From Verrucomicrobiota bacterium (GTDB lineage: Bacteria; Verrucomicrobiota; Verrucomicrobiia; Limisphaerales; JAEYXS01), in the NCBI GenBank assembly GCA_030834415.1, contig JAURFH010000011.1, forward strand, positions 1-38,464: 38,464 nucleotides of DNA. The letters run 5' to 3'. Of this stretch, positions 1 through 38,464 are shown in pieces; position 1 is the stretch's first letter, and every line of letters starts with the position of its first letter. The notes beneath the pieces were generated by a model, which had not been told where the DNA came from, did not search any database, and saw nothing but the letters and a program-made list of their open reading frames with translations. The position numbers were made by a program, and so were the translations under genes.

Positions 1-77
1 ATCATCTTCCGTTAGCTTTGAGTTGGGGTGTTTCGACCCCCTTGGGAATGCGCCTGCGCACCGACCCTTGGCGATCA
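1..77. repeat. 77-bp terminal direct repeat, copy 1 (circular assembly join)
   Basis: Bases 1-77 are identical to 38388-38464. A perfect repeat of exactly 77 bases at contig ends is what a k=77 de Bruijn assembler leaves on a circular or terminally redundant molecule, so it is probably an assembly overlap and not a biological repeat. It lies inside the HNH endonuclease gene, whose frame continues across the join only if one copy is removed. The true circle would therefore be 38,387 bp. Confidence 0.95.
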
Positions 78-390
78 TGTCCCGCACATTGTCCGACTGT
101 GTGCCAGCCTTCAGATGCGCAGGATTACAACAAGAGGGGTTGTCGCAAGTGTGCATGATAACAGTGCCATGCCACTCGTTTGGATTGTCGGGGATAGCCC
201 CGTTGGCGAGAATGTAAGACACCCGATGCGCAAGCATACTGCGTCCCTTTCTCCCGCCGACGCCGATTGACCCATAGCCCTTTACGCGAGTTTTGCCAAC
301 CCAAGGCCAGCACTCGTCAGGACCACAAACATCAACGTATTTCCAAAACCGCTCTTCCAGCGGGAGGCGGGCGCGCGGCCCGTCTTCCAC
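1..390 (-). CDS. HNH homing endonuclease, N-terminal part (gene spans the contig join)
   Basis: This is the first part of a 172-residue protein that continues at 38387-38259 once the terminal repeat is collapsed. The start is GTG at 390, with AGGAG ten bases upstream. Residues 15-110 carry the phage HNH pattern: FWKYV, GPDECWPW (24-30), KGYG, AHRVSY (54-59), a zinc/HNH core with H80, C82, D83, N84, C87, N89 and H92, then GTQSDNVRDM. Proteins of this family nick or cut DNA and often behave as homing endonucleases. It sits between the major capsid gene and the rest of the late operon, a common place for homing genes. Family assignment is firm; mobility is inferred. Confidence 0.9.
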   Translation of the reverse strand, partial: MEDGPRARLPLEERFWKYVDVCGPDECWPWVGKTRVKGYGSIGVGGRKGRSMLAHRVSYILANGAIPDNPNEWHGTVIMHTCDNPSCCNPAHLKAGTQSDNVRDMIAKGRCAGAFPRGSKHPNSKLTEDD

Positions 391-553
391 TGTTCCCGTT
401 CTCCTCAGTCTGTTGTAGTGGCGAGAACATAACCCGGCTAACTCGACCCAAATCGGACGAGAACAGCCAACCACACGACACGATGACATGGAATGCTCCG
501 ATACTGTTCAAAATTGCAGAACAATACCGGAGCATCATGCCATTAGCAAGTGA
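391..553. other. Intergenic stretch downstream of the capsid gene
   Basis: About 160 bases between the capsid stop and the HNH start. The capsid-proximal part holds the long hairpin listed at 493-535. The rest contains an imperfect inverted repeat (CTGTTCCCGT near 390-400 against ACGAGAACAG near 458-467) and the AGGAG ribosome-binding site of the HNH gene. No tRNA or convincing promoter was found. Confidence 0.5.
493..535 (-). terminator. Long hairpin just after the major capsid gene
   Basis: Arms 493-509 and 519-535 pair over 17 bp with two G-U pairs and a nine-base loop, starting 19 bases beyond the capsid stop. There is no U-run on the leftward transcript, so it is not a classical intrinsic terminator. 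It may instead be a partial terminator or a 3' stabiliser that raises capsid mRNA over downstream genes. The structure is directly visible; the role is inferred. Confidence 0.6.
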
Positions 554-1498
554 TCAACTGGTCGTCAAATCCCAAACCGCGCCGTGTGCGGCTTCGTTGC
601 GCATTTCCAGCGTGAACTCGACGAGAAGCTGCTTGCGCTCGCTGTCGCCAGTCTTTGCCAGGTCATGCGTGACGAAGGGACGGAGGTACGAAAGCGCCAT
701 CATGTCCTTCTGCACCAGAAGGGCGTCCCGCGCCCGCATGAAGCGGTTCGGGATGACCTCAAGTTCGCCGAAGTCGGAATCATAGAGATCAATGGCAGCG
801 CTCAGCTTCGAGTCCTCGGCGGACTTGAAACGGGTTGCATTGCCCGTGAACTCCGAGAACTTCTGCTTGTTGAACGCACCCACAAAGATGCACTCAGGAT
901 CGCCGCCGTTATCCCACACGTCACGGAGAACGCCTTTCAGCAGGTTCTCAGTGAACGCGCGCTGCGTTCCGTCCGTGCGGGCGGTGTTGCCCAGAGAACC
1001 GTCACTGCCGCTCGTGCCGTTGCTGGTGTTGGTCGTGATCCACGAGGGAATCGCGCCAAGCTGGCGAGCGGTCGAAACGTCACCTGCCGCTTCAGCACCG
1101 TTGCGGGTGATGATGGCTTCCATGTCGCGCTTGAGTTCGCGGCCCTTCTTGGCGAGCTGGTATGCCATTTCGGACGAGCGACCCGCCTTGTTCACGACTT
1201 CCTGGGTGCCGGAAATACGAACAACCTTGTCCGCGATCTGGCAGGTGTTGGAAAGCCGCGTGGTAGCGGTTACGGCGTCGGTGGTGGCGTCGAAGCCTTC
1301 ACCAACGGCGTTGGACGAAGAAGCCGCCGCGAGAGCGTCGGTCTGCCACTCATGCAGAACCGCGGCAGCGCTGTTGCGGGCGATGCTCGACATGATCGGG
1401 GTGTCGATGGGCGAGATGTCGTAGATGGCGTCCGCGAGGTCTTCGCGGTTGCCCACGGCGTCAAACGCCGTGAAGGTATTGGATACTGGATGGGCCAT
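554..1498 (-). CDS. Major capsid protein, SU10 family (DUF5309-like)
   Basis: A 314-residue protein that builds the icosahedral head. The N-terminus (NTFTAFDAVGNREDLADAIYD, then SPIDTPIMSS) and the following VLHEWQTDALAA and EGFDATT stretches match SU10/DUF5309 capsid proteins of podoviruses, as do the central KKGRELKRDMEAIITRNGAE and the C-terminal EFTLEMRNEAAHG. Length is normal for the HK97-fold family without a delta domain. It lies directly after the scaffold gene, the standard order portal-scaffold-capsid. A 17-bp hairpin follows its stop. Identity is highly likely from motifs and position. Confidence 0.93.
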   Translation of the reverse strand: MAHPVSNTFTAFDAVGNREDLADAIYDISPIDTPIMSSIARNSAAAVLHEWQTDALAAASSSNAVGEGFDATTDAVTATTRLSNTCQIADKVVRISGTQEVVNKAGRSSEMAYQLAKKGRELKRDMEAIITRNGAEAAGDVSTARQLGAIPSWITTNTSNGTSGSDGSLGNTARTDGTQRAFTENLLKGVLRDVWDNGGDPECIFVGAFNKQKFSEFTGNATRFKSAEDSKLSAAIDLYDSDFGELEVIPNRFMRARDALLVQKDMMALSYLRPFVTHDLAKTGDSERKQLLVEFTLEMRNEAAHGAVWDLTTS

Positions 1499-2723: not shown

Positions 2724-2771
2724 GCGCCGTTTTCGGGAATAGCGAATACCGCTGCTCTTGGCTTGGCGGCG

Positions 2772-3047
2772 TTAGAATGGCCCGCGTTTGGGCCTGACAA
2801 GCTGTTCCAGCTTCTTTTTTGCAAGGTCGCCAGCGTGAACGTGCGTCTCAATGGCGGCTTTGATTTTGGGAAGCAGGCTAACGGCTCGGTGCGCGTCCTC
2901 CCGAATGTTCGGGTCTTTCGCATCGCGCCAGATTTCGACAAGCAGCGAGTCAACCTTGTCGAACGCTTCTTTCAGTAGTGGATTCTCAAGCAGCGCCTTG
3001 GCCTTCTGGCCTCGGTTTTCCTGCTTGCGCAGTTCCACATCGTCCAT
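2772..3047 (-). CDS. Small conserved head-region protein, unknown function
   Basis: A 91-residue mostly helical charged protein (LLENPLLKEAFDKVDSLLVE, later IKAAIETHVHAGDLAKKKLE). No family recognised. Its start lies two bases after the stop of the preceding 38-codon gene, and it sits between portal and scaffold, a region where short-tailed phages often keep small head-assembly proteins. The ending of two lysines, LEQLVRPKRG and an aromatic gives a basic tail. Function unknown; coding status is well supported by frame, spacing and composition. Confidence 0.7.
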   Translation of the reverse strand: MDDVELRKQENRGQKAKALLENPLLKEAFDKVDSLLVEIWRDAKDPNIREDAHRAVSLLPKIKAAIETHVHAGDLAKKKLEQLVRPKRGPF

Positions 3048-3049
3048 GA

Positions 3050-3166
3050 TTACTTACCGCGCTTGCCGCGATAAGCCATGTCGCTGCCCTTGTTCAGACG
3101 GGAGCCAACGACGTTGGAGCCGCTGCCATACGAGGTCGGCGGGCTTTTGCTTGCTTTGGGCTTCAT
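3050..3166 (-). CDS. 38-residue basic phage protein
   Basis: Reading the minus strand from ATG at 3166 gives a 38-residue protein rich in K, R, S and G (starts MKPKASKSPP, ends MAYRGKRGK). A GAGG ribosome-binding site lies six bases upstream. The stop is two bases from the next start. Small basic proteins are common between portal and scaffold in this phage type and may bind DNA or the portal (inference). No family recognised. Confidence 0.65.
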   Translation of the reverse strand: MKPKASKSPPTSYGSGSNVVGSRLNKGSDMAYRGKRGK

Positions 3167-3173
3167 GATTGCC

Positions 3174-3317
3174 TCACAGATTTGCCAGAATGAAAAAGAG
3201 CGCCGCATCGTCCGTCTGACGGCGGGAGATAGGCGCTTCGGCCTTGGTTGGCCTTTCCGGGGTGTAAACGAACCAGCCCGGCGTTTCCTCTATCTCAATG
3301 ACTTCCTCAATCCTCAT
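3174..3317 (-). CDS. 47-residue phage protein
   Basis: Starts at ATG 3317, within the last codons of the preceding gene (an 11-base overlap), and ends 7 bases before the next start. The acidic first third (MRIEEVIEIEE) is followed by PGWFVYTPERP, a polar segment and a hydrophobic end (ALFFILANL). Too short for family assignment. The tight fit between two genes and the overlap with the upstream stop argue that it is translated. Confidence 0.6.
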   Translation of the reverse strand: MRIEEVIEIEETPGWFVYTPERPTKAEAPISRRQTDDAALFFILANL

Positions 3318-3486
3318 CCTCCATGGCTTTGCTCAATCGCCATGAGGCGCACCGCAGGCATGCCTTTGACCAGCGCACTTCCCTGATGGCCGAAAGCAGA
3401 TCGTTGTCCTGAAGATAGCCCAGCGCCTTGTCAACTGATTCCCTTGCCACATCAATGGACGCACTAATTTTGAGCTGGTCAGTCAT
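3307..3486 (-). CDS. 59-residue phage protein after the portal gene
   Basis: ATG at 3486 overlaps the portal stop (GATGACTGA arrangement), giving a 59-residue protein starting MTDQLKISAS and ending AMEDED. It is predicted helical, with SVDKALGYLQDNDLLSAI resembling a short helical pair. No family recognised. The upstream extension of this frame lies inside the portal gene and is not part of it. Translational coupling to the portal is likely. Confidence 0.65.
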   Translation of the reverse strand: MTDQLKISASIDVARESVDKALGYLQDNDLLSAIREVRWSKACLRCASWRLSKAMEDED

Positions 3487-5713
3487 CATCTTTCGCCGCA
3501 CCGCCGACAATATCGCCAATGTCATTGCGTTCCAGAACGACCCTCGGCCCAACACTCCGTTGGGCCAATGCGGCCTTCTGCTGTGCCTCGGACGCCCGCA
3601 GACGTGCGTTGAACTCGGCCTCCTGACGCTTCAATTCCATGTCAAGGGCGTGTTTCTCACGCTCCATCTGCATCTGTGCCTGGTGCTTCTCGCGCTCCAA
3701 GAGCAACTGCGCTTGTAGCTTCTGAAGTTCCATTTCGGCCTTGCGCTGGTCCGACTGGGCCTTCATTTGCATGTCGGCTTGCTTCATCTGGATGTCAGAT
3801 TGCGCTTTCTGCTGGTCCATCTGGGCCTGCATCTGCATCTTCTGGCCCTCCATCTGCGCCTTGACCTGTTCGGGGTCAGGCGGCGGCGGGGGCTTGGGCT
3901 GCGATGCCTCGTCGGTCGAAATCTCGCCGAAATACGCTTCCGGCTGCTGCTCGCCCGTTGCTTCAACGAACTTCAACAGCGCATGAGACGCATGGGCCTC
4001 ATTCACAAGCGGACCAAAGCCGCCCTGCATTTGCACGATCTGGCCCTGAATGTCGAGAATCTGACGGCGGGCGACAAGCTGCTGTTCCTTCGATCCATAC
4101 CCCAGGCCAACGGACACCGTAACGTCCATGTGTGGGTTCCAGCGCGACGGCTCGATGGTCACGAACTGACCGCGCAGGCGGATGATCTTCTCACGCTCCT
4201 GATGGGCCACAGTCAGGCGCAGAATCTTCTTGAACAGGTCGCGGATGCCCGTGTTGGCAAAGATGCGAGCGATAAGAAGCTGACGGCGCTGCGATGCGGT
4301 CATCAGCATGTTCATTCCCGCAGCCGTGTCCGAGAGCGCATCAGGATCGAGGCCTTGATTCAGCCTAGACACACCCGCACGGCTCTCCTTGACCTGATCG
4401 GCATACTCCAACATCGGGAAGATATGCCCCGCGATGGAAGGCGTCTGCTGGAACTGGATCGCGTCACCGACCGAATCACGGCCTTCAATGCGGATCGCGC
4501 CGCCAATGGCGTTACTCAGCAGGGTGTCGAGGTCAACCCGCTCGTTCACCGCCGCACGGCTGTTGTTGACGTTGTAAATGTTGTCCAGCAACTGACGCCA
4601 GATGGTCGTCTTCAGCTTCTGAACGTCCTTGACCTGATCCGTAACAGACTGGCCCACAAGCGCATGAGGTGTGGGAACGGGGGTGATGGTCACGAACGGC
4701 TGTTCGGCAACCTCCACGTTCTCCAGGATGCGGTGGCCCGTGCCACCAACGGTGACCTTGCGGACCTCGGCAATGCCGTCTCCGTCGTAGTCCACCCGCA
4801 GGTAACACTCATGTATCCAGACCTCGCGCATGGACGGATCGCGGGCGCTGTTCTCAACAATGTCATCGTCGCCGTGGCGCGTCGTGCGCTCTTCGTTATA
4901 TTCACCCTCGTAACTCGAGGGAATGTCCTTCACGTCATCCCAGGCAAAGCCCTCGGCCACGAGATCGGAGATTGTTTTTTTCACTCGGTGACAAACGAAC
5001 GGAATCAGCATATTGCCCCGTTCGTCGTCCAGCCTCACCGCACGACGGGAGAACAGAAATTCTTCGGGCGGGACGGACTCAACGCGGACACGACCCTCAA
5101 CCGTGGTCCTGACCGCACGAACATCATACAGCTCCATGGGGAGTTCCATGCCCGACATGGGGTCAATCTGCATGTCCGAGATTTCAACGATTTCCTCGAT
5201 GTCAAGTTCGTCGTCCTGATCCAGCTTCGCCAACTCAACGTCGGTCAGCCCGGTGTAATCCTCGCGCTTCTGCTCTTCCCGTTCGTCCCACCAGACCTTC
5301 GCAATACCCTGGCGCAGCATCAGGGCGTCCTTCACCATATCGTAAAGGATTTGGAAGCCGTCGTTCTCCTTGTGGAATACGTAATTTGCGTAATCCGTCG
5401 CCTGCTCCGCGTATGCCTCATCCTCTGGGCCGTAAGGTTCATAGCGCACAGCGTCGTCGCTGGACGTGAAAACCTCGATGATGGAGGGCAGCATCCACTC
5501 AATCGTGTCGTGAACGTCCCGCGACACAATCTGCGAGCGCCCGTCCACCTCGTTGCCAAGAGGCTCGCCGAAGTAATACTTCATGGCCTCTTCGCGGTCG
5601 GCGGTGAAGTCGCCCGCACCGTCATCACCAATGCGCGAGCCTACAGCGGCGTTAATCTGCGCACGGACGATGCTTTGCAGCGTCTCCGCATCGAGGGGCT
5701 TAGGGCCTTCCAT
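3479..5713 (-). CDS. Portal protein (P22/SU10-like) with long C-terminal barrel helix
   Basis: A 744-residue dodecameric portal that forms the vertex for DNA packaging and tail attachment. N-terminal features include DREEAMKYYFGEPLGNEVDG and VSRDVHDTIEWMLPSIIEVF, typical of P22-like portals; TAAGMNMLMTASQRRQLLIA in the middle is also characteristic. From about residue 625 the protein becomes an uninterrupted amphipathic helix with repeated K/Q/M/A units (QMQAQMDQQKAQSD and similar), about 110 residues long. This matches the barrel or crown helix of P22-type portals, which senses head filling. The start is coupled to the preceding gene by TAATG. Confidence 0.93.
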   Translation of the reverse strand: MEGPKPLDAETLQSIVRAQINAAVGSRIGDDGAGDFTADREEAMKYYFGEPLGNEVDGRSQIVSRDVHDTIEWMLPSIIEVFTSSDDAVRYEPYGPEDEAYAEQATDYANYVFHKENDGFQILYDMVKDALMLRQGIAKVWWDEREEQKREDYTGLTDVELAKLDQDDELDIEEIVEISDMQIDPMSGMELPMELYDVRAVRTTVEGRVRVESVPPEEFLFSRRAVRLDDERGNMLIPFVCHRVKKTISDLVAEGFAWDDVKDIPSSYEGEYNEERTTRHGDDDIVENSARDPSMREVWIHECYLRVDYDGDGIAEVRKVTVGGTGHRILENVEVAEQPFVTITPVPTPHALVGQSVTDQVKDVQKLKTTIWRQLLDNIYNVNNSRAAVNERVDLDTLLSNAIGGAIRIEGRDSVGDAIQFQQTPSIAGHIFPMLEYADQVKESRAGVSRLNQGLDPDALSDTAAGMNMLMTASQRRQLLIARIFANTGIRDLFKKILRLTVAHQEREKIIRLRGQFVTIEPSRWNPHMDVTVSVGLGYGSKEQQLVARRQILDIQGQIVQMQGGFGPLVNEAHASHALLKFVEATGEQQPEAYFGEISTDEASQPKPPPPPDPEQVKAQMEGQKMQMQAQMDQQKAQSDIQMKQADMQMKAQSDQRKAEMELQKLQAQLLLEREKHQAQMQMEREKHALDMELKRQEAEFNARLRASEAQQKAALAQRSVGPRVVLERNDIGDIVGGAAKDDD

Positions 5714-10358: not shown

Positions 10359-10703
10359 TTACTGGCCCATCTCCGTAATGTAGACCGTGCCGCTCGCGGA
10401 CACAGACAGCACGGCGATATGCTCACCCGCGCCGATATTTAAGTATTCTGGTGTATAGGCGGGGATAAACATTGCGGTGGAACTTGCGGATGCGTTCGGA
10501 GACACGCCGACGTTGAAGAAAATGTCGGACGTGGACACAACGCGAATGGTGCGCACACCCTCGCCAGGGACCGAAGTCGCGGCGGTCGAGGTGCTTGGGT
10601 TGCTTTCAATCGTGAAGGACGAAAGCGGGCGATAAACCACGTCATCCGCCAAGGCAGCAGACGCCACCAGAAGCAGCGCCGCAGCAGTGATAATGCGCCT
10701 CAT
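10359..10703 (-). CDS. Beta-rich structural-type protein with a Sec signal peptide
   Basis: ATG 10703 with AAGGAG eight bases upstream gives 114 residues; a longer frame upstream lacks support. Residues 1-19 (MRRIITAAALLLVASAALA) are a textbook signal peptide with an ALA cleavage site. The mature part has short strands (RTIRVVSTSDIFFNVGVSP, AEHIAVLSVSASGTVYI type), like small beta-sandwich proteins in phage structural modules. The combination of signal peptide and virion-like domain is unusual. It is the first gene after the early/late boundary hairpin. Alternative: a secreted surface-acting protein made during infection. Confidence 0.75.
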   Translation of the reverse strand: MRRIITAAALLLVASAALADDVVYRPLSSFTIESNPSTSTAATSVPGEGVRTIRVVSTSDIFFNVGVSPNASASSTAMFIPAYTPEYLNIGAGEHIAVLSVSASGTVYITEMGQ

Positions 10704-15905: not shown

Positions 15906-16304
15906 TCATGCCCTCCATCCGATAAATTCCTCCGGGTAGCCTTCGTTCATCTTGTCCAACTGCCACTTGAGCGTTTTGACGATTCCCTTCCACTCGTGCT
16001 TTTTGATCTGACACGTCCGGTTCGCGGCGGCGCGAAGTTCCAGATAAGTTTCCTTGCCGATCTTGGCTTCGATCCACTCGCCGTGCATTACAGGATCGTC
16101 GGTAAAACGTCGATGGCAGGATGCACAATGCGCCGCAGCGTTGCGGGAGTCCAGGCGGGTTGCGTTGAACCGCCGTGAAATGTGATGGGAACAGTGCAGC
16201 GATGCCTTGCTGTCGCCGTGCCACGACCCGCAGCACTCACACGTCCATTTGGCGCGGGTGCGCACAAGATTTGAAAAGACGGCATCGGCGGCGTTGCGCT
16301 TCAT
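15906..16304 (-). CDS. NinG/Rap-like recombination nuclease
   Basis: A 132-residue protein with the NinG (lambda Rap, structure-specific endonuclease) pattern: CECCGS at 22-27, LHCSHHISRRFNATRL at 37-51, then NAAAHCASCHRRFTDDP at 55-71. The cysteine pairs and histidines form an HNH-like zinc site. Proteins of this type cut branched recombination intermediates and would work with the Rad52-like annealase encoded on the other strand. ATGA overlap with the mom-like gene; one base separates it from the DnaA-like gene. Confidence 0.82.
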   Translation of the reverse strand: MKRNAADAVFSNLVRTRAKWTCECCGSWHGDSKASLHCSHHISRRFNATRLDSRNAAAHCASCHRRFTDDPVMHGEWIEAKIGKETYLELRAAANRTCQIKKHEWKGIVKTLKWQLDKMNEGYPEEFIGWRA

Positions 16305-16999
16305 GTGTTGCCTGAATTTGGAGCGACCTCGCGGGGATGCTCCGCGCTCGCGCTGCCGGGGGGCAGTTCGTCCAATGGACAGGTCGCATTGTTGGGTTTG
16401 GGGTAGGGGTTCGACTTCAGGCCGAGACGTTTAGCGCGGGTTTTCCCGGCCACGTTCAACGGATTCCAGTACAGGTGTTTGCCTTCGTCGTAGTGGGGTT
16501 CAATAGATCGCGACGGCATCAATTCGCGAAGGCGAACAGGGCTTCGAGTCCCCCATGTTGAATTACACGAACGCCCCGGAACGAACTCGCCATCAACAAT
16601 CAAGCCGTCCATCCGGCGTTCACGTTGGCCGTCGTAGTTCCATCCCGCCGCTTGGTAGATGCCTCCGTGATGCCCTTGCGTCCAATCCGCAAACGACACT
16701 GCAAGCGCGTGGCCGTTATTTCGTAGATGGCGGCACCCAAACGCCACAAGCGCCGACAACTGTCCGGTGTAATCATCGCGGCGCACTAGCCGCGCCAGCT
16801 CAACAACGGTCTCAGACCACCGCGTGGGCGGGAACGTAAACACGCAAGCCGCCACGATGTTGTCGCCGTAATCTCCGAATAACCCGCCGCTTTCCCGCAC
16901 GGCGTAGCAGTGTTGGATGTTTGACGGCATCCGGCGCGAGTAATGGTGGTCGCGAACTAGCGGCCAGACTTCATCGGGTGTTGCGCCTGTCAGATTCAT
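16301..16999 (-). CDS. Mom-like DNA adenine modification protein
   Basis: A 232-residue protein, practically the size of phage Mu Mom. Matching features: VVELARLVRRDD (ELARL at 67-71), SFADWTQGHHGGIYQAAGWN at 102-121, and CNSTWGTRSP near 145-154. Mom proteins have a GNAT-like fold and convert adenines to a methylcarbamoyl derivative that blocks many restriction enzymes. GAGGTGG directly precedes ATG 16999. The gene is behind a strong hairpin terminator and has no promoter of its own in sight, which recalls the tight control of mom in Mu, where the product is toxic. Chemistry here is inferred. Confidence 0.8.
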   Translation of the reverse strand: MNLTGATPDEVWPLVRDHHYSRRMPSNIQHCYAVRESGGLFGDYGDNIVAACVFTFPPTRWSETVVELARLVRRDDYTGQLSALVAFGCRHLRNNGHALAVSFADWTQGHHGGIYQAAGWNYDGQRERRMDGLIVDGEFVPGRSCNSTWGTRSPVRLRELMPSRSIEPHYDEGKHLYWNPLNVAGKTRAKRLGLKSNPYPKPNNATCPLDELPPGSASAEHPREVAPNSGNT

Positions 17000-23656: not shown

Positions 23657-24658
23657 TCAGCGATCGCCAAAGCAGATGACATTGACTGCATCGGGGTTAG
23701 TGTCCGTGCCGCCCGCGTTGACGGTCTTGATCTGCAATTGGCCCGCCGTGATGCCCGACACACGGGCCACGTTGAAGTTTGCATCCTGAAGCGTGATTGT
23801 GCAGGTGTATTGTGCGTTAGTAAAATTCACGTCCCATTCCACGGTGAAGTCGCCCGTGCTGTCGTAGGTGACCGAAGCGACATTCTGGCCCGTCACGGTG
23901 CCGATAGCGGAACCTGATACTGCGAAGCGGACGAAAGCCTTGGCCGCGTATGGGGAACGAACGACCTGATCCGCAGTCACCGTGCGAAGAGCGGTTTGCG
24001 CTTCCATCTCCGCCGCCGTCGCGTTTTCCTGAACACCGGAAATCGTCGTGGAGGCCACGGGAAGGGCTTCCCACGCCACGTCCGTTCCATCGGAGCCAAG
24101 AAACAGGTCAGAGCCACCAACAGGGAGTCGTGCGGCGTCGGCGCTTGAGTCACCGTAGATCAAATCCCCCCGAGCAATGATGATATCGGCGGGGGACGAG
24201 GTGTTGACCGTGGGCGAAAGAAGCTGGAAGTTCGTTCCATCGTAAACGACTTCGACCTTCATTCCGGCCTCTATGTCGCCAGCAGCAAGGTCCGCGTCGT
24301 TCTCTTTCTTGATGGTAACGGCACCAAGACTGTCCACGTTCAGGGTCACGGTGCCATCGTTGTCCGTATGCGCGTCGAAGCACATTTTCAAGCCATCGTA
24401 ATAGCTGGACAGCGTTCGGGTCGCTGATAGCGTCCAGACCGACGAAGACCCGGCAGAGGCAATGACACAGGACTCATCGCCTGACCACCGCGCCACGATG
24501 CCCTCAAGCGCCCGTGCGCCATCGTTCACGGCGGCTGGACTCATGTTCTCAGGGAAGCGGTCGGTATTGGATGCGTCAACAGCGTCGAGGCTGTCAATTT
24601 CGGCTGCGATGGCAGGAACAGCCAGCAGCGCCACCATCGCGATGATGTAGCGTTTCAT
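23657..24658 (-). CDS. Fibre-like structural protein with a Sec signal peptide
   Basis: ATG 24658 (MKRYIIAMVALLAVPAIAAE) with GAGG upstream gives 333 residues. Residues 1-22 are a clear signal peptide. Mature start EIDSLDAVDASNTDRFPENM, then SPAAVNDGARALEGIVARW, is the typical N-terminal motif of phage tail fibres that attach to the tail. A strand-rich body (TVTLNVDSLGAVTIKKENDA, MKVEVVYDGTNFQLLSP) follows, and a C-terminal beta domain (YTCTITLQDANFNVARVSGI). Fibres normally have no signal peptide, so this is odd. Eight bases from the preceding stop. Confidence 0.8.
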   Translation of the reverse strand: MKRYIIAMVALLAVPAIAAEIDSLDAVDASNTDRFPENMSPAAVNDGARALEGIVARWSGDESCVIASAGSSSVWTLSATRTLSSYYDGLKMCFDAHTDNDGTVTLNVDSLGAVTIKKENDADLAAGDIEAGMKVEVVYDGTNFQLLSPTVNTSSPADIIIARGDLIYGDSSADAARLPVGGSDLFLGSDGTDVAWEALPVASTTISGVQENATAAEMEAQTALRTVTADQVVRSPYAAKAFVRFAVSGSAIGTVTGQNVASVTYDSTGDFTVEWDVNFTNAQYTCTITLQDANFNVARVSGITAGQLQIKTVNAGGTDTNPDAVNVICFGDR

Positions 24659-24666
24659 GGGAAACC

Positions 24667-26832
24667 TCAATTTGTAGAAAGAAGGCCGCTCAGGGGCGGT
24701 GCTTGTTCAACGGGTGGGGCGCTTAAAAGGCCACGGTTCATGTTCGCAGAAGGGCGCTGCAACAGGGGCTGCACTGCCGAAGGCGGAGCAGATTGCGCTG
24801 CGGCGGGCGCAGGATTGACAGGCTGACTAGCTTGGATAAGTTGGTAAATTTCATCTGCAATGGTCGGCTCTGCTTCTGCAACCGTATAAAGACGACCAAT
24901 CCAGGATGCCGCCTCATCAATCGCGCCGCGCCCGCGAGCCATTGCCAGGTTCCCGGAACCCAGCGGAACGTCAGCAAGCCATCGAACAAAGCGGGGGTTT
25001 GTCAGCAGTTTTGCAGCGGCGCGGGGTGCAATCAAGGAACCAACAAGCGCATAGCCTGCATCCCTTGGGTCGCCTGTCAGGCTCATGGCTGAACCAGAGA
25101 AAAGCAGCGCGGAAATCAGCGTTCGCGTGGTTCCAGATGTGTTTCTCAAAAGGTCAAGGTTTCGCTCAGAACCAAGAACCTTGGCAAGATTGTCCAACTC
25201 TGATTTCAGGTCGCCATATCGTGTGCCGGAAAAGACCGCGTTCTTGGCCGCGTCGGACATCTTCCGCCAGTTCGTGAGAAACGTGGAGGGGCTGAAATCG
25301 TCGGCGCTTGCGCCAGGATTTGCGCCACCCATATCCTCAAGAAGCCCAAGGACATAAACGTCCCAAGACTCTTCCGGCATTGACGATCTGATCTGGAACA
25401 GCGACGAGATGTCTTCAGATGCCCTCCCGCTTGTTGCCAACCTCTTAACCCTGCCGAACACAGATTCGCCCGACGCGCCATCTTTTAGGATGTTAGATAG
25501 TGCGCCCTCAATTCTGGACATTCCTACGTTGTAAAAGTCGTTGGCTTGGCGGAATGCGGTTACAGCATCCGGCCCAGCAGCTTCCGCAGCGGCCTCAAGG
25601 TCGCGAGACAGTGCGGCATAGATGGAATTTAATTCTGCCCGTTTAGCGCCATTAGTCATAATGGAAGGCGTTGCTAGTTCCTGGCCGATGAAAGACCGCA
25701 GCTCCTTCGCCTGCGCCCATGTGAGAGTCCCGCCCGCTTCCTCAATCGCTTTGGCAAATTTAGCCATGGTCGGGTCGGTTAGCGCCGCACCCAAAGCGGG
25801 CGCGGGGTTGGCCGGGTCTGAGAACACATTCGCCCTAGATGAAAGGGCTTCTGCGGTATTCGTCATCTGCAATATGGGATTGTCAGGCAGGGCGCTATCA
25901 AGTGCGCCGTATAATTCATCAGCCCTGACGGTGAAGTCGGAAACAAAGTCACGGCCACCCTGCTGCAATGCCTCACCTGCGCCAACCCGTCCGGGCCGAA
26001 GCCCAACGGAAGATGCTGTTGGGACGTTGCCGCCGATCCTTTCAACTGCGGATTCGATTTCAGCAAGGCGTGTCAATCGGGCCTCTTCAATCACACCCAT
26101 TCCGCCAGGGACATTAGCAAGTCCCTGTTCCAGGGCCTGAAGTGTTTTGTTCCCCGTCACCGCTCCAGCGGAGTTGGGTGTCACGCCCGCCCGGTCGTAA
26201 CCTCGCAGGGCGTTTAGTATGTTGTCGCCAAATGCGGTATTTTGCAGCCCCGCAGCGGCTCTGCGAAGTGCCGTTATCCCGGCTTGCCCAAGACCCTCAC
26301 CGACAGTCCCACCAAGCACGTCAACGCCACCCTGCAAGACCTTTTCACTAGTGCCTCGTGTGTCTACTGTGCCAAGCAACGGCCCTGCCAAGAAGTCATA
26401 AAGGTTTCCACCGATACCTGTGCCAACCCCCGCGCCAAGGACCCCCCCAAATGTCGGCCCGACAGGCCCGGAAACAGCAGCAGATGGCGCTGCCAGTATA
26501 GCCCCACCAGCGGCACCTATACCACCACCGACCATCTCGGCAGTTTCGCGTCCGACGCTCGCAAGGTCGCCCGCAATGTCAAACCCTTCGGGATTGTAAA
26601 GTGTTAAACGACCTGTGTTGCCGTTGAAGAACATGAAATTTTCATCACCGAACGGCTGTGCGTCAGGGTAGAATTTCCGAAGCGTTGCAAGACGGTCTTC
26701 GGGCGTGTGTGCCGACCCAACAGCCTGCCGAACACCAGCGGGCGCACCCGTGGTTTTGTCCATGATACTTTCAAGGTCAATCTGAACATCTTGAGTGCCG
26801 AGATTGCCGAGTTCAGTGATTATTTCAGCCAT
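24667..26832 (-). CDS. Large internal virion / ejection-type protein
   Basis: A 721-residue protein. After a polar start there is a glycine/alanine-rich hydrophobic stretch at about 95-165 (VGGGIGAAGGAILAAPSAAV, FGGVLGAGVGTGIGGNLYDF) that could insert into or cross the cell envelope. The remainder is helical (residues 250-620), with PAAPAQ-like disordered tail ending PPLSGLLSTN. Location after two other structural genes and the membrane-active segment fit an ejected internal protein that helps DNA enter the cell. No family named. Confidence 0.7.
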   Translation of the reverse strand: MAEIITELGNLGTQDVQIDLESIMDKTTGAPAGVRQAVGSAHTPEDRLATLRKFYPDAQPFGDENFMFFNGNTGRLTLYNPEGFDIAGDLASVGRETAEMVGGGIGAAGGAILAAPSAAVSGPVGPTFGGVLGAGVGTGIGGNLYDFLAGPLLGTVDTRGTSEKVLQGGVDVLGGTVGEGLGQAGITALRRAAAGLQNTAFGDNILNALRGYDRAGVTPNSAGAVTGNKTLQALEQGLANVPGGMGVIEEARLTRLAEIESAVERIGGNVPTASSVGLRPGRVGAGEALQQGGRDFVSDFTVRADELYGALDSALPDNPILQMTNTAEALSSRANVFSDPANPAPALGAALTDPTMAKFAKAIEEAGGTLTWAQAKELRSFIGQELATPSIMTNGAKRAELNSIYAALSRDLEAAAEAAGPDAVTAFRQANDFYNVGMSRIEGALSNILKDGASGESVFGRVKRLATSGRASEDISSLFQIRSSMPEESWDVYVLGLLEDMGGANPGASADDFSPSTFLTNWRKMSDAAKNAVFSGTRYGDLKSELDNLAKVLGSERNLDLLRNTSGTTRTLISALLFSGSAMSLTGDPRDAGYALVGSLIAPRAAAKLLTNPRFVRWLADVPLGSGNLAMARGRGAIDEAASWIGRLYTVAEAEPTIADEIYQLIQASQPVNPAPAAAQSAPPSAVQPLLQRPSANMNRGLLSAPPVEQAPPLSGLLSTN

Positions 26833-32252: not shown

Positions 32253-34764
32253 CGTAGTCTCCTCTCTCAATTACGTTTGTCTCGTACTCCATCAAGTTAA
32301 CGGTACTGACACTGGGGTCGTCGATGCCACGGGCGATTTGCTCGTACAGTTCGCGCATTTCATCAAGTCTTGCCTGCCTTTCGGATGGTTTCATAGCCAG
32401 CCACGCATCCCTACCCATATCAAATTCTGGGATGTATTGGAACCTTAATCCATTAAGGCCCGCGACTGCCTCCTCGGCCTGACCGGCTTGCGCACCAGCG
32501 CGATCCATCACGCGACTGTCGGTTATGAAGGTGAATCCATCCACCCCATACTCTGTCAGTTTATCCGACAGTTCGCGGGCGAACTCTGGTCCCTGCCGGT
32601 TACGGAAGTACACTTCCACACCAGGGCGGCTGTCGGGGGTGACATTTGGCACGACCTTGGAAATGAATGCGGCATCCTGGTCCGCGTCTTTCGCCACCTC
32701 AACCATCCGGCGCGTAACGTCTGTTGGGTCAAAGTTCTCGCGCACAACGAACTCTGCGTTGAATGCGCGCTCATCCGACTGCATGAATCGACCGTAGGTG
32801 TTGTTCACTTGGTACATCACAACACTTGGGTCGTTGGCAGCAGGAGCGCCCAACAGGCCCGATATTTCGGCTTGCTGCGCGTTCGTCGGACGAAGGCCAG
32901 GACGCTCGACGCTGATACCCAGGACGTACCGCGCAAGAGGGGCTTTGATCTGGTCCAGTTCCGCCTGGGCCTGGGCCTGCCGCGCGTCGTAATCTGCGCG
33001 GGCCGCATCAACGCGCGCCGCGTAGGTTGCGTCAGTGTCGGTGGCGAGTCGGTTGGGCGGGGTGAAACTTTTGTTAATCTCACGACGCAGGGATTTGACT
33101 GCCGCTGGGTCGGCAGCGCCCGCGAAGGATGCTTCAAGTTCGAACGACCCGCCCTCGCCTGCTTTGGTTGTCCACCCGCCGTCCGTCCACCGCTCCTTCT
33201 CAATAAACCACGCAACGGCCTGGAGATCGGCGGGGGTCATGTCCTCAAGGTGAGGGGCAACCGACCGGATGATTCCTTCCTCGTTGATGCGGTCGGCGGC
33301 GTCCCTAAGAACCTTTTGGCCGAAGCCAAACTCGCCACCAACATTGGGGTTCTCCAAGGTCGAACCTTTGCGGTGGTTGCCGGTAACTCCCTTTTCGACA
33401 AGAGGCGGCAGGCGATCCATACCAGCGAGACGCCGAAGATGACGCGCGGCCCAGACATCAATGGTCGCCTGGTCCGTGTAACCGATCAAATTTCCGGTGA
33501 AGTTAGGCGTCTTCGGAGCGCCTTTTGCTGTGCGGAACATATCGAACAGTGCTTTCGTAGCAGCGGGGCTGTTGGTGTTGAATAGTGAGCCAGCAGCACT
33601 GGTGATCAAGCGGAAGGGGTTGTTGGGGTCGTTATGAAGTTGCTGCAGCCGGGTCGGATTCACGTTGCCCGCGTCGAGCATCTCCTGATACAGCCTCATC
33701 TCCTCGTCGTATTCGCCCCGGCTGAATCGGCGCATAATCTCAATGGCATTGTTCCAGTTCATTTCTACGCCGGTCTGGGCAGAGGTCGCGCCGAGAATAT
33801 CCGCGAAGACATCACCCATACCGCCAAACTCATTGCGCAGTGTGGTACGCATCGTGCGATACCAGTTTGCCTGATTCAGTATCTCAGCGGCGTCTGGGTC
33901 GCCTGCCCTCACCCGATCGACAAGATTGCGGACCTCATCGACCTCGCGCTCCACAATTGTTGATTGCCAATCTTCGGGGGAGACACCCTCTGGCGGCTTT
34001 TCAAAACCATACGCTACTTCGCGATAAACGGGCTTGCCCTTATCGACCCTCTGCACATCCATCAGATCCTGCGCCCACCCCTCTGCAGCGGGGTAGTTAG
34101 CTATCTGGGCTTCAACCCGAGCCGCCACCTCTGGATCAAGCGGCGGGCCACCGTTTGTGCGGGGTGGAACGGGCGCATCTAAACCCGTCCCCCTCAAACT
34201 ACCGCCCTCGTCCCCGAAGAACTTACCCCAAATATCAAAATCGCCCACAGCTCGCGCCCCTTGGACGAACGGCCTCACGCTCAGTGCAGTGAGGCCCGCA
34301 TCGGCGGTCCCCATAAGCATCTCGGCAAGAGAACCCGCCCCGGTTTCGGCGCGCTGGGCGTTGTCAAAGGCAATGGGAATGCTGAAAGGTGGTATCATAG
34401 AAAGAACTGTGCCGAGACTTTCCGCGTCGGTGGGTGCGGGCATCTGGGCGATAGGCGGGCCACCTGCACCAGCTTCAAAAGCCCCCACGGGCGATATATT
34501 CCTGCGAACAGAGGCAAGTGGAAACTGAAATTCCGGTGCGAAACTCTGCATCCAGTCGGGCAGATTTGCCTTTTCAATCTCGGACTGGTTGCCGTCAAGG
34601 AGCCACCGCGCTATGTCGAGTTGGAGCGGATTTCCAACGCCGCCAGGGACGAGGGTCGGCTGCTCCATTAGCCCTGGGCGTGTTTCAAGGTTCATCCGCT
34701 GGTCACCGTTGGGCGGCGCTAGTTGACGGATACGGTCAATCGCGTATTGGGTAGCTGTTTTCAT
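32236..34764 (-). CDS. Large multidomain internal protein with DUF7178-like domain
   Basis: An 842-residue protein, the largest in the genome. Residues about 300-430 match the DUF7178 pattern: ILNQANWYRTMRTTLRNEFG, FADILGATSAQTGVEMNWNN, then DMFRTAKGAPKTPNF and IDVWAARHLRRLAGMDR. This domain is seen in polyvalent-type phage and mobile-element proteins injected with the DNA. A coiled stretch follows near 580-620, and a C-terminal domain near 690-790 (PGVEVYFRNRQGPEFARELS). Likely packaged and delivered to the host; enzymatic activity unknown. Coupled to the adaptor by ATGA. Confidence 0.78.
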   Translation of the reverse strand: MKTATQYAIDRIRQLAPPNGDQRMNLETRPGLMEQPTLVPGGVGNPLQLDIARWLLDGNQSEIEKANLPDWMQSFAPEFQFPLASVRRNISPVGAFEAGAGGPPIAQMPAPTDAESLGTVLSMIPPFSIPIAFDNAQRAETGAGSLAEMLMGTADAGLTALSVRPFVQGARAVGDFDIWGKFFGDEGGSLRGTGLDAPVPPRTNGGPPLDPEVAARVEAQIANYPAAEGWAQDLMDVQRVDKGKPVYREVAYGFEKPPEGVSPEDWQSTIVEREVDEVRNLVDRVRAGDPDAAEILNQANWYRTMRTTLRNEFGGMGDVFADILGATSAQTGVEMNWNNAIEIMRRFSRGEYDEEMRLYQEMLDAGNVNPTRLQQLHNDPNNPFRLITSAAGSLFNTNSPAATKALFDMFRTAKGAPKTPNFTGNLIGYTDQATIDVWAARHLRRLAGMDRLPPLVEKGVTGNHRKGSTLENPNVGGEFGFGQKVLRDAADRINEEGIIRSVAPHLEDMTPADLQAVAWFIEKERWTDGGWTTKAGEGGSFELEASFAGAADPAAVKSLRREINKSFTPPNRLATDTDATYAARVDAARADYDARQAQAQAELDQIKAPLARYVLGISVERPGLRPTNAQQAEISGLLGAPAANDPSVVMYQVNNTYGRFMQSDERAFNAEFVVRENFDPTDVTRRMVEVAKDADQDAAFISKVVPNVTPDSRPGVEVYFRNRQGPEFARELSDKLTEYGVDGFTFITDSRVMDRAGAQAGQAEEAVAGLNGLRFQYIPEFDMGRDAWLAMKPSERQARLDEMRELYEQIARGIDDPSVSTVNLMEYETNVIERGDYDEYLK

Positions 34765-35378
34765 ACCACCGACACCTCAGAACGCATGATTGCACCAACG
34801 GGGAAGCGGTCTTGCGAGTCAGACACGTTGACACGGCCCTTGATGTCCTCATAAAGCCTGCCCCACCGCGCTGCGGCTTCGTCGTCTTCCAGGTACATCG
34901 CCGCTTCAAGCAGGGATGCGTAAAGCAGAAGCCCGCGAGCGTTCGTGAACAGCCAATTGGTATCAGCATCGTCAGAGAGCGCGGTGAACTTCTGCCAATA
35001 GTACAGTTTGCCCGTGTACGATCCGCTTGACGGATACGGCGCGAACACGAGGTTATCGCCCTCGATTGTGTAGGCTTTGGGAATGCCCGTATCGCGGGCC
35101 ATGCCGCGCTTCCAGAACTGTTGCGGGGACAGGTATTCGATCCGCGATGCGTCGTTGTCGAGAACAAAGCGCCGCGCACCAAGGAAGCCCGTGGGCAGCG
35201 ATGCGGTCTGCGCGCTGATTGTCACGTCCACGCTGGTTTCCATCGGGCGGATGCGCAGGTCAAGCCCGATCCTATCCTCCGCCATGGCGATAAACTCGGG
35301 GATGCGCGAGGTCAGGTCATCGCGCTCAAGCCATGACGCCACCGCAGACTTGAGTTCTCCATAATTCGTGATGCTCAT
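34761..35378 (-). CDS. Head-tail adaptor protein (SU10 type)
   Basis: A 205-residue protein that would sit beneath the portal. N-terminus NYGELKSAVASWLERDDLTS, IPEFIAMAEDRIGLDLRIRP, METSVDVTISAQTASLPTGF, and C-terminal LYYWQKFTALSDDADTNWLF, ASLLEAAMYLEDDEAAARWG match SU10-type adaptors and gp4/gp11-like connectors. GGGGAG precedes the ATG. Agreement with the SU10-type capsid and portal strengthens the call. Confidence 0.88.
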   Translation of the reverse strand: MSITNYGELKSAVASWLERDDLTSRIPEFIAMAEDRIGLDLRIRPMETSVDVTISAQTASLPTGFLGARRFVLDNDASRIEYLSPQQFWKRGMARDTGIPKAYTIEGDNLVFAPYPSSGSYTGKLYYWQKFTALSDDADTNWLFTNARGLLLYASLLEAAMYLEDDEAAARWGRLYEDIKGRVNVSDSQDRFPVGAIMRSEVSVV

Positions 35379-35872
35379 CGAAACAACTCCCCGCAGCCAT
35401 CATATCCATAGCGTGCGCATGGGTTTAGAATCCGGTGCAACTTGCTGTCGGGGTGGGCTGTAACACTCAACCCCTGACCACGGGCAAACCCCGCCAGGAA
35501 CGCAATCTGCGGCGTCTGGAACCCGTACAACTCCGTGTCCCCTCCAACACCCCACAACGCCACTTCGTGGTCGTGCATGAGCGCGAGTGCGACCATGTAA
35601 GTGATGGTGCAGGTCATCGAACACCCGAAGGTCGCGGTCACTTCCGTCAACGGGTAGCTGATAGAACGCGGAACCTCGGGATACTGTTCCTGCATGACAA
35701 CGGGACAGTCAAAATCGTTGATATGATCCACGCGGGGAAGCCAATTATCCCGCTTGTGCATCTCGAACGCCATTGTCGCGTCCCGGTCGTGGGACTTCGC
35801 CATGACCCATCGCTGGTCGTGGTCGGGAACTTTGTCCTGATAGTCGGGATGACCGCCTACGATCAGGATCAT
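35375..35872 (-). CDS. Conserved phage protein, Rossmann-like, unknown function
   Basis: ATG 35872 (MILIVGGHPDYQDKVPDHDQ) overlaps the preceding stop (ATGA); 165 residues. The pattern of a first beta strand with GGHP, a MAFEMHKRD helix, PVVMQEQYPEVPRSISYPL, then MVALALMHDHEVALWGVGG and QIAFLAGFARGQGLSVTAHP matches a family found in many phages near adaptor genes. Rossmann-type fold likely; activity unknown. The extra N-terminal stretch upstream is from another frame. Confidence 0.75.
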   Translation of the reverse strand: MILIVGGHPDYQDKVPDHDQRWVMAKSHDRDATMAFEMHKRDNWLPRVDHINDFDCPVVMQEQYPEVPRSISYPLTEVTATFGCSMTCTITYMVALALMHDHEVALWGVGGDTELYGFQTPQIAFLAGFARGQGLSVTAHPDSKLHRILNPCARYGYDGCGELFR

Positions 35873-36108
35873 TTGACCGACTTCATCTTGACGATGCAGG
35901 ACCGGGGGATGCACAGGTCGCCGCCGATCTGGCTTGAACACAGGTGCGAAGCAATCACGATAAAGTCCTTCTCGTCGCGCAGGAGGAATCCGACCGATTC
36001 AACCTCGACAGGCTCCATCTCCATCACGTCATCAAGGTCAACCCACGTGCCCGCGCCGCGCTGCGAGCAACTGTCAATCCACTTGACGCGAACCAAATCC
36101 AACTTCAC
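35869..36108 (-). CDS. Small conserved phage protein
   Basis: A 79-residue beta-rich protein: DLVRVKWIDSCSQRGAGTWV, EVESVGFLLRDEKDFIVIAS, then DLCIPRSCIVKMK. Similar short proteins accompany the preceding family in other phages; probably a small beta-barrel. ATGA overlaps on both sides. Function unknown. Confidence 0.7.
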   Translation of the reverse strand: MKLDLVRVKWIDSCSQRGAGTWVDLDDVMEMEPVEVESVGFLLRDEKDFIVIASHLCSSQIGGDLCIPRSCIVKMKSVK

Positions 36109-36449
36109 ACCCGGCCCTCAACGGTCTTGAACTTGTACCAATCAGGATCGTTCAGGAACTTCTTGAGGAAGGCTACCTTCTCCTTGCGGTTCCAGCGCAT
36201 GAAGTCCTGGACCCTCACGCCAGAAAGCCGACACCATTCCATGTAGACCGTGGGCGGGATCGAAGCGACCTTGCGGCCAAAGCCAATATCGCGCTGACCG
36301 TCAACCCGCAGAAGGTGGTTTTCGTCCAGCGTGTCGCTCACGTCCTCGTGGTAGGAGATGCGCGTTTTCATATCGTCAGGGTCGAAGTGGAAGACGGTCT
36401 TTACGCCGCCGTCGTTTCCAATCAGCGCCTTGTCGATGTAGCTACCCAT
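36105..36449 (-). CDS. Conserved phage protein, unknown function
   Basis: ATG 36449 (MGSYIDKALIGNDGGVKTVF) overlaps the stop of the membrane protein gene before it; 114 residues. Strands at the start (TRISYHEDVSDTLDENHLLR), then a helical part (PPTVYMEWCRLSGVRVQDFM, RWNRKEKVAFLKKFLNDPDW). It belongs to the compact group of small genes upstream of the adaptor. No activity can be assigned. Confidence 0.7.
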   Translation of the reverse strand: MGSYIDKALIGNDGGVKTVFHFDPDDMKTRISYHEDVSDTLDENHLLRVDGQRDIGFGRKVASIPPTVYMEWCRLSGVRVQDFMRWNRKEKVAFLKKFLNDPDWYKFKTVEGRV

Positions 36450-36882
36450 CGGGAACCTCAATCTTGCTTGCGTGCAACAAAGGCGACCACGGGGACGCCG
36501 AATACGACACTTCCCATGCCCACCGTTCGGAATCCTCGTTCATTACCACTTCGTGGTGCAGGGTCAGGTTCCGCAGCGACAGGTAGACTTGCTGCCGGAT
36601 TTCCCAGTCCCATTGATAAGTCTGCACCGCCTTGACGGTGAATTCGAAGGCGTCAATCGGTGCCGCGTTCAGACGGAGGTAGGCTTGCCCGAAGGAAACA
36701 TGCCCGCGCCATTCTTGAACGCCCATCCATCCGTTTGCCACAACGACAACGGACAGGAGCAGCCCAAGGCATAGGCGAGCAATGCGCCTGTAACTGGCAT
36801 CTGCCAAGGAAAACCAACCAACCCCATTGTCAGCCCCAGAACCAAAATCACTGACGGGACCGCGCGGGAGAATATCAGCCAC
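36442..36882 (-). CDS. Membrane protein overlapping the O-antigen-ligase-like gene
   Basis: GTG 36882 is preceded eight bases upstream by GGAGGT and gives 146 residues; ATG 36726 is a shorter alternative (94 residues). One membrane segment (LCLGLLLSVVVVANGWM at about 38-54) is followed by a soluble part (GQAYLRLNAAPIDAFEFTVK, TYQWDWEIRQQVYLSLRNLT) reminiscent of the TPR-like tails of some O-antigen ligases. The first 214 bases overlap the ligase-like gene in another frame, an exceptionally long overlap here. Could be a partner protein, or the shifted C-terminal part of the ligase. Confidence 0.65.
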   Translation of the reverse strand: MADILPRGPVSDFGSGADNGVGWFSLADASYRRIARLCLGLLLSVVVVANGWMGVQEWRGHVSFGQAYLRLNAAPIDAFEFTVKAVQTYQWDWEIRQQVYLSLRNLTLHHEVVMNEDSERWAWEVSYSASPWSPLLHASKIEVPDG

Positions 36883-37811
36883 AGACAAAGACCTCCCAAA
36901 GCCAGACCAATCAACCCCGTCTCAGCCCAAAGCTGCAACGGGTCGTTGTGTGCCGCGCCCGCATGGTGGGCAATCTGGACCTCCGTTCGATTGAACAGCA
37001 CTAGATGCTCCATTCCGAAGCGCGGATAGTGGTAATTGAACGCCCCGAAGCCCTGCCCAATGGCGGGATGCTCCAGGATCATGTTAGCCGTGTTCCACCA
37101 CAACTCCACGCGGGCCATCATCGAACCCGCCACCACGTCCCACGCTTCAGGAACGGCGAACAAGACGATTGCCGGAACCGCGATGGCGAAGACAATCAAA
37201 TGACGGGCATGACGCCACAGAAGCCACAAAAACAGGCCGTAGAGCGCGATAAACTCAATCCGGCTGGGTAGTGCCAGCAGATAGGCCAAACACGCTACAA
37301 ACACGCTTAAATGCGCCGCACGGACCCATAGGCGCTCACTGGACGTTCCAAGCCACAAAAGCGGCAACAAAAGGACAACATATTCGGTCGCGAAGTTCTC
37401 GTTCCCGAAAGAACCGTCCCAACCAAGGAAGATGTCAAATGCGATAACACCCGCCGCACAAACCCCTGCAACGCGGATGACCGGGGCCATCCCGTACACC
37501 CTTCCGGCGAAGAAACACGCGGCCAGGGGCAGGAGTTTGTGTAGCTGGTGCAGGCTTTGTCTCTGGTCCTCAGACCACAGAACGGAAAGGCATAACCAGC
37601 CCAGAAACAGCAGGACCGCCGCCGTAACGGCGTCCCACTGAAACCGGAGAAACGGCAGCATAAGGCAGAACGCGTAAAGCACCATCCATTTTGGAAGTTG
37701 CCCAGCGACCAGCCCCGGCCACCAAATCAAAGTAGAAAGGAAGAGGGCGGTCGAGATGACCCAACCGCCCCAAACCTCACTGTGCTTCGATGCGAATGAC
37801 AAGGGTCGCAT
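36669..37811 (-). CDS. O-antigen ligase/polymerase-like membrane protein (WaaL/Wzy_C type)
   Basis: ATG 37811 gives 380 residues and overlaps the previous gene by 35 bases; no good ribosome-binding site is visible, so the start is uncertain. About ten hydrophobic segments are present. Wzy_C/WaaL signatures: GNENFATEYVVLLLPLLW (136-153), SRIEF (183-187), ARVELWWNTANMILEHPAIG (233-252), GFGAFNYHYP, AHNDPLQLWAETGLIGLALG (287-306), GFPWQMPVTGALLAYALG near the end. Members join or polymerise lipopolysaccharide O-chains in the inner membrane. In a phage this suggests surface conversion or superinfection exclusion; it lies in the late operon. Function inferred. Confidence 0.8.
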   Translation of the reverse strand: MRPLSFASKHSEVWGGWVISTALFLSTLIWWPGLVAGQLPKWMVLYAFCLMLPFLRFQWDAVTAAVLLFLGWLCLSVLWSEDQRQSLHQLHKLLPLAACFFAGRVYGMAPVIRVAGVCAAGVIAFDIFLGWDGSFGNENFATEYVVLLLPLLWLGTSSERLWVRAAHLSVFVACLAYLLALPSRIEFIALYGLFLWLLWRHARHLIVFAIAVPAIVLFAVPEAWDVVAGSMMARVELWWNTANMILEHPAIGQGFGAFNYHYPRFGMEHLVLFNRTEVQIAHHAGAAHNDPLQLWAETGLIGLALGGLCLWLIFSRAVPSVILVLGLTMGLVGFPWQMPVTGALLAYALGCSCPLSLWQTDGWAFKNGAGMFPSGKPTSV

Positions 37812-38259
37812 CAATGTCGTTAGTCGAATAGCCCGACGTGGTGATGGCGATAACGCCACCCTCTTCGACGGTCTGATCCGAAAGCGACAGGGTATCAACG
37901 TCACCCGCAGCGGAGTTGGAGAACGAGATGTCCAGCGTGTCCGTTGCGTAAGGCGTGAACGCCGTGGTCCCGGCGGATGCCACACTCACAGTCAGCGAAA
38001 TGTCGTGTGTGGCAATCGCGCCAAACAAAACACTCTCAACCTGCGACAGTGTGCCAGCAATCGGGGAAACCACGAACGTCGTGGACGCCGTGGAGACGTT
38101 TTCCAGCAGAACGGTCAGGTCGCGGCCAACGGGAACAGTGTCCCCGTCGCCGTTGACCCATTCCGCCGTGCCGGTGCCGTCCTGACGAATGTTCCAACCC
38201 GCGAAAGCGAGGCTGGGAACAAGCACCAGAGCGGCCAACAGGGGAAGATAACGCTTCAT
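37777..38259 (-). CDS. Beta-sandwich protein with a Sec signal peptide
   Basis: A 160-residue protein. Residues 1-20 (MKRYLPLLAALVLVPSLAFA) are a clear signal peptide with an AFA cleavage site. The mature part, with DTVPVGRDLTVLLENVSTAS, VVSPIAGTLSQVESVLFGAI, then GVIAITTSGYSTNDIDATLV, resembles small beta-sandwich proteins near capsid genes (decoration-like). TAATG couples it to the HNH gene; it is followed by the O-antigen-ligase-like gene. Export is predicted, so a periplasmic or surface role during infection must be considered besides a virion role. Confidence 0.78.
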   Translation of the reverse strand: MKRYLPLLAALVLVPSLAFAGWNIRQDGTGTAEWVNGDGDTVPVGRDLTVLLENVSTASTTFVVSPIAGTLSQVESVLFGAIATHDISLTVSVASAGTTAFTPYATDTLDISFSNSAAGDVDTLSLSDQTVEEGGVIAITTSGYSTNDIDATLVIRIEAQ

Positions 38260-38464
38260 TATTTCAGTTCCTTCTGTATTTGACTCCAGCCATCGCCGCG
38301 TCGAATGCGGTTAACTGTTGCGCGATTCACGCCGAGTCGTCGGGCCATTTCCGCGCCACTAAGGGAAGACGTGAGAATCTTACTAACATCATCTTCCGTT
38401 AGCTTTGAGTTGGGGTGTTTCGACCCCCTTGGGAATGCGCCTGCGCACCGACCCTTGGCGATCA
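38259..38464 (-). CDS. HNH homing endonuclease, C-terminal part (continues from 1-390)
   Basis: C-terminal portion of the same gene; 38388-38464 duplicates 1-77. Residues about 121-165 form a helix-turn-helix segment (SGAEMARRLGVNRATVNRIR) like the DNA-binding tails that follow HNH cores in homing endonucleases. Stop TAA at 38261-38259 overlaps the ATG of the next gene (TAATG), so the intruding gene is neatly coupled to the late operon. Without joining the ends, this gene looks like two unrelated fragments and neither would be called as a whole. Confidence 0.88.
   Translation of the reverse strand, partial: IAKGRCAGAFPRGSKHPNSKLTEDDVSKILTSSLSGAEMARRLGVNRATVNRIRRGDGWSQIQKELK
38388..38464. repeat. 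77-bp terminal direct repeat, copy 2
   Basis: Second copy of the sequence at 1-77. Collapsing the two copies restores one continuous 172-codon reading frame, which supports a circular or circularly permuted genome. Confidence 0.95.

Follow-up and report, generated by a model that had tools for sequence, protein, structure and literature searches.

The window analysed here is an entire contig of 38,464 bp from a binned genome. Its ends carry an exact 77-bp direct repeat, and the junction is crossed by three IMG/VR contigs, so that the contig closes to a circular map 38,387 bp long. It encodes a short-tailed-phage gene set comprising a terminase, a portal protein (phrog_1216), a scaffold protein, a head protein (phrog_1328), an SU10-type adaptor and matches to ejection and DNA-transfer families. 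As the original prediction had noted, no integrase is visible among the ORFs scanned in the window. The phage is P22/LUZ24-like and lytic-looking; the contig is known only as a member of the bin, and the binned bacterium may not be the host. The features of interest are the following.

554..1498, minus strand: major head protein (phrog_1328, E=2e-105), the upstream flank of the enzyme/p160 module once the circle is closed
34761..35378, minus strand: SU10-type adaptor (PF24175, 117 bits), downstream flank of the module
36105..36461, minus strand: small conserved virion-operon protein (phrog_3982), downstream flank of the module
36442..36882, minus strand: ORF2, the detached C-terminal part of the enzyme, with one transmembrane (TM) segment and a predicted periplasmic helical domain (matches the fused domain of L020, L104, L105 and L192)
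36891..36896, minus strand: Shine-Dalgarno-like GGAGGT, 8 nt before the GTG of ORF2 (from the sequence)
36669..37811, minus strand: P0001, a Wzy_C / O-oligosaccharyltransferase-like polytopic membrane protein of 380 aa (PF04932 match, invariant residues, dN/dS)
37777..38259, minus strand: p160, with a predicted Sec-type signal peptide (MKRYLPLLAALVLVPSLAFA, then G) and a predicted beta-sandwich, the proposed acceptor (signal-peptide rule, AF2, dN/dS); overlaps the enzyme gene
38388..38464, no strand: 77-bp direct repeat of window 1-77 (exact match of the contig ends)

On the closed circle, the gene order is head protein, p160 and enzyme, with the phrog_3982 protein and the adaptor flanking them downstream, which bears out the earlier placement of the enzyme gene between capsid and adaptor genes in the virion operon. 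Beyond that prediction, the gene directly upstream of the enzyme encodes a putatively exported protein, and a detached C-terminal ORF lies downstream. A 205-aa ORF with the look of an HNH-type endonuclease runs across the contig junction (38259-38464 joined to 1-489, minus strand) and sits between the head protein and p160, and a conserved 165-aa ORF (35375-35872, minus strand) between the phrog_3982 protein and the adaptor has no Pfam match and has homologs in the related loci L014, L105 and L106. Elsewhere in the window are a Mom-like DNA modification protein (16301-16999, minus strand; PF25680, 74 bits; phrog_1384) and a tail-fibre-like protein (23657-24670, minus strand; weak phrog_11355) whose N-terminus resembles a signal peptide (MKRYIIAMVALLAVPAIAA). 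A signal peptide is unusual on a tail protein.

P0001 belongs to the Wzy_C/WaaL superfamily, as first proposed: it matches Pfam Wzy_C (PF04932) with 49.6 bits (E=4.8e-13; cut-off 31.7), all 20 family members scanned match the same profile at E<=0.01, and both the AHNDPLQLWAETGLIG and ARVELWW...HPAIG segments on which the assignment was based are present in the ORF. Translation may start at the ATG at 37811 or at a TTG at 37802 that is common to the relative L013. A simple hydropathy count gives six strong segments, and about ten membrane spans are plausible. Compared with its 76%-identical relative in L014, the gene has a dN/dS of 0.16, similar to the values of the head protein and p160, which indicates purifying selection and therefore a gene that is maintained. 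IMG/VR holds close copies at 99% identity and a second group at 77-83%. Across 15 aligned phage enzymes, N137, N139, R234, P249, G252, G254, G256, H288, Q293, G299 and G302 are invariant, and alignment with PDB 7tpg and 9rmk makes R234 and H288 the counterparts of the periplasmic-loop Arg/His of WaaL (R288/H338) and PglL (R298/H349). An AF2 model from a four-sequence alignment was too poor to use (pLDDT 47); its fold matches are meaningless and include no ligase (GT-C) fold.

The enzyme gene has a constant partner. A p160 homolog with a predicted signal peptide stands directly upstream of the enzyme in all 15 aligned phage loci, and in every one of them the two frames overlap or stand a few bases apart. 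These 15 homologs, some of them reached by profile scans, represent 14 lineages at <=52% identity; pairwise identities among the enzymes are 21-38%, except for window/L014 (76%) and L104/L269 (52%). Each of the 15 loci likewise encodes a relative of the window's head protein (50-73% identity in the other 14), and related loci that keep the head protein and adaptor without the enzyme have no p160 detectable by BLASTP. A degenerate search at the DNA level for the motif of exported p160 found copies not followed by a complete enzyme gene only at contig ends. Moreover, the distance matrices of enzyme and p160 are correlated (Mantel r=0.50, p=0.0002, 14 taxa), as are those of head protein and enzyme (r=0.46, p=0.002), and the former correlation is as expected if enzyme and p160 travel together. 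No PHROGs family matches either protein, and tblastn against 50,697 phage records returned no relative for several Wzy queries, no ORF2 match for ORF2 queries and a single match, pelagiphage HTVC106P, for p160 queries. A text search of the literature found no phage-encoded periplasmic protein-glycosylation system. The pair is kept in at least 14 diverged phage lineages from the environment and seems to be undescribed so far. In some loci the head protein gene is seemingly interrupted or shortened (L106 6335-7536; L280 2785-4466; L287 near 2755-4358), and a LAGLIDADG-like ORF inside or just before this gene in L280 and L287 suggests introns or homing endonucleases.

The dN/dS of p160 is also 0.16. 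A simple rule, requiring a basic n-region, a hydrophobic stretch and an A-x-A-like end, served to call its signal peptide; it fits 17 of 17 enzyme-linked p160 proteins and none of six sampled unlinked ones, although the unlinked homologs all come from one pelagiphage-type clade and the contrast is therefore a single evolutionary comparison. The unlinked homologs, which include HTVC106P gp61 adjoining the head gene of that phage, have neither the signal nor the roughly 28 residues that follow it, and complete ones start with MRTLNDYF. The AF2 model of p160 (23 sequences, pLDDT 81) is a beta-sandwich. Its structural matches are weak; among them are jelly-roll proteins of viruses, proteins with TNF-like folds and, with the best TM-scores of the matches listed (0.49/0.59), a capsid chain of KHP30 (7dn2_1). 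At E=1.5e-3, however, the KHP30 match is not significant, and TNF-like folds score similarly. Matches among viral predicted structures are mostly unnamed phage proteins. The cement proteins of KHP30 and GP4 lie on the capsid surface (PMC9698820). The position of the p160 gene near the head protein gene and its predicted beta-sandwich, with the weak KHP30 match, resemble such proteins (KHP30 7dn2, GP4 gp1) and lead us to suggest a cement-like role; p160 differs from them in its signal peptide and in the lack of a significant structural match. It would be unusual for a virion-type protein to be exported.

The enzyme itself is split in the window. In seven related loci (L020, L104, L105, L106, L192, L244 and L269), the enzyme runs on past its last TM segment into a helical C-terminal domain, whereas this domain is a separate ORF in the window group and in L281 and L287. 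ORF2 lies in the -1 frame relative to the enzyme, overlaps its gene by 214 nt and starts with GTG, and in the A4 profile it corresponds to positions 392-498, where the enzyme continues. In the comparison of the window with L014, constraint on the enzyme frame reaches to about ALLAYALG, beyond which dN/dS is 1.6, while in ORF2 the first 33 codons are unconstrained and constraint sets in at about codon 34 (dN/dS 0.32). This change of frame near ALLAYALG led us to consider a programmed -1 frameshift joining the two. However, no slippery heptamer was seen in the conserved stretch, a fusion at this point would lose one TM segment relative to the fused homologs, and in L287 the two genes are cleanly separate. 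We therefore favour two chains, with independent initiation of ORF2 probably from its own GTG; the L014 counterpart of its Shine-Dalgarno-like site is weaker (GGGTGG).

The activity of the enzyme is more difficult to assign, since PF04932 covers WaaL, Wzy and PglL alike and Wzy_C alone cannot separate them (PMC3643930). Among 20 members scanned against curated profiles, three of them bacterial, the nearest models are TIGR03097, a putative O-glycosylation ligase (9 members), and NF058641 TfpM (6 members), all far below their cut-offs (TIGR03097, 36 bits against 188; TfpM, 27.7 against 600 (L020)); one member matches the EPS polymerase profile NF041870 Wzy_EPS. The Pfam scan of the enzyme members gave neither PglL_A (PF15864) nor Wzy_C_2, two domains that TfpO and TfpM are likewise said to lack (PMC12645811). 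A search of solved structures that included the bacterial members was dominated by TPR matches and was repeated with phage sequences only. By score, the resulting profile is nearer to WaaL (7tpg, E=8e-4, over the Wzy_C core) than to the oligosaccharyltransferase 9rmk (E=0.016, 17 bits), both matches being weak. The 9rmk alignment extends from GFGNENF through to the FP motif, across PglL Q178/N180, G316, G318, H349 and E404/P406, and the fit of these residue numbers to PglL Q178, N180, E404 and P406 is the ground on which 9rmk appears to be a PglL enzyme. The GFGNENF and FP regions correspond to features reported for PglL but not for WaaL (PMC3643930). Of the PglL-only residues, the equivalents of N180, G316, G318 and P406 are conserved in the phages, Q178 is replaced by N, H400 is absent, and E404 is D/E in several members and G in the window protein. 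The phage enzymes share with PglL the R298, P313 and H349 equivalents too and, in fused members, a helical domain after the membrane part; they differ from it also in having a dedicated neighbour.

Genomic context adds to this picture. Genes of oligosaccharyltransferases typically, and in well-documented cases, stand beside those of their substrates (PMC3643930, PMC12645811). Three distant bacterial relatives retrieved by a pattern scan (two Atribacterota, one Acidobacteriota) adjoin type IV pilin genes; the Wzy_C relatives found in the order of the bin itself are not beside pilins. The phage arrangement resembles TfpO/PilO and TfpM in that a Wzy_C membrane enzyme gene lies beside the gene of a proposed exported substrate; it differs in being phage-borne and in that the partner is a beta-sandwich head-gene neighbour rather than a pilin.

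The original prediction had the enzyme acting as a ligase or polymerase that alters the surface of lysing cells or released vesicles. Late in infection, a WaaL-type enzyme would transfer a glycan, such as the host's O-antigen, to an envelope lipid or to lipid A-core, the changed surface keeping progeny off debris or kin and p160 being an unrelated neighbour or an accessory. Membership of WaaL's Pfam family, the standing of 7tpg as the best solved relative, the H-N-x9-G-x-x-G motif and the conserved R and H are all consistent with this possibility. However, at PglL-reported positions the phage family has GFGNENF and D/E-F-P motifs, its fused members possess an additional C-terminal domain, and protein O-glycosylation ligases rather than WaaL are its nearest curated profiles. 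In addition, every lineage pairs the enzyme with a putatively exported phage protein and not with LPS genes, the flanks examined hold no LPS-modifying genes, and the distant bacterial relatives adjoin pilins. A WaaL-type ligase would leave unexplained both the 15/15 pairing and the missing signal peptide of p160 homologs without an enzyme. Thus, alteration of host LPS is not favoured: we consider it unlikely, and less likely than an O-oligosaccharyltransferase with a dedicated exported acceptor.

Alternatively, p160 and the enzyme may assemble in the envelope to block superinfection or aid release, the enzyme then binding lipid-linked glycans but not passing them on to p160. The close pairing, the overlap of the two genes and the exported partner would be as compatible with such a complex as with an enzyme and its substrate, but the invariance of the catalytic-type residues R234 and H288 in 15 sequences suggests catalysis and makes this improbable. 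A Wzy-type polymerase causing seroconversion or a capsule change has similarly poor prospects: Acinetobacter prophages do encode Wzy_C polymerases (PMC13228068) and one member here matches Wzy_EPS, yet those of A. baumannii reside in prophages and alter capsule linkage, whereas the enzyme described here lies in a late virion operon without a visible integrase, so that no lasting conversion is expected, and its constant exported partner would go unexplained.

Because of the putatively exported neighbour, the nearest curated models, the 9rmk alignment and the pilin-adjacent bacterial relatives, we read the enzyme, with moderate confidence, as a phage-encoded O-oligosaccharyltransferase and p160 as its own exported acceptor. 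Working like PglL, TfpO or TfpM in O-linked transfer, the membrane enzyme would take a glycan from the host undecaprenyl-pyrophosphate carrier and attach it to Ser/Thr of p160, which Sec would have exported into the host periplasm late in infection; other exported phage proteins might also be modified. Glycosylated p160 may then cover virions during lysis, or have its role at the cell envelope. A bolder version, which we regard as doubtful, is that lytic podoviruses of a widespread group add glycans to their own capsid-decorating protein outside the cytoplasm: a cement-like protein would be exported by Sec, receive a host surface glycan from the phage oligosaccharyltransferase and join the virion at lysis, so that particles carry host sugars. 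Dedicated enzyme-substrate pairs for O-glycosylation are known from bacterial pili. If the O-oligosaccharyltransferase reading is true, it would explain why a head-gene neighbour exists in a signal-peptide form, phages would put host lipid-linked glycans on a protein of their own, and compact enzyme/acceptor pairs would be available.

When the signal-peptide rule was applied to 179 ORFs of enzyme-bearing loci, nearly all positives other than p160 were the enzyme itself, the ORF2-type protein or members of a second small exported family, which is possibly a further acceptor. The L106 homolog of this family lacks the signal. Members with a signal peptide occur in the window (10359-10703, minus strand; MRRIITAAALLLVASAALA) and, either immediately behind the enzyme or a few genes further on, in L105 (8749-9138), L281 (7589-7951) and L283 (2290-2649).
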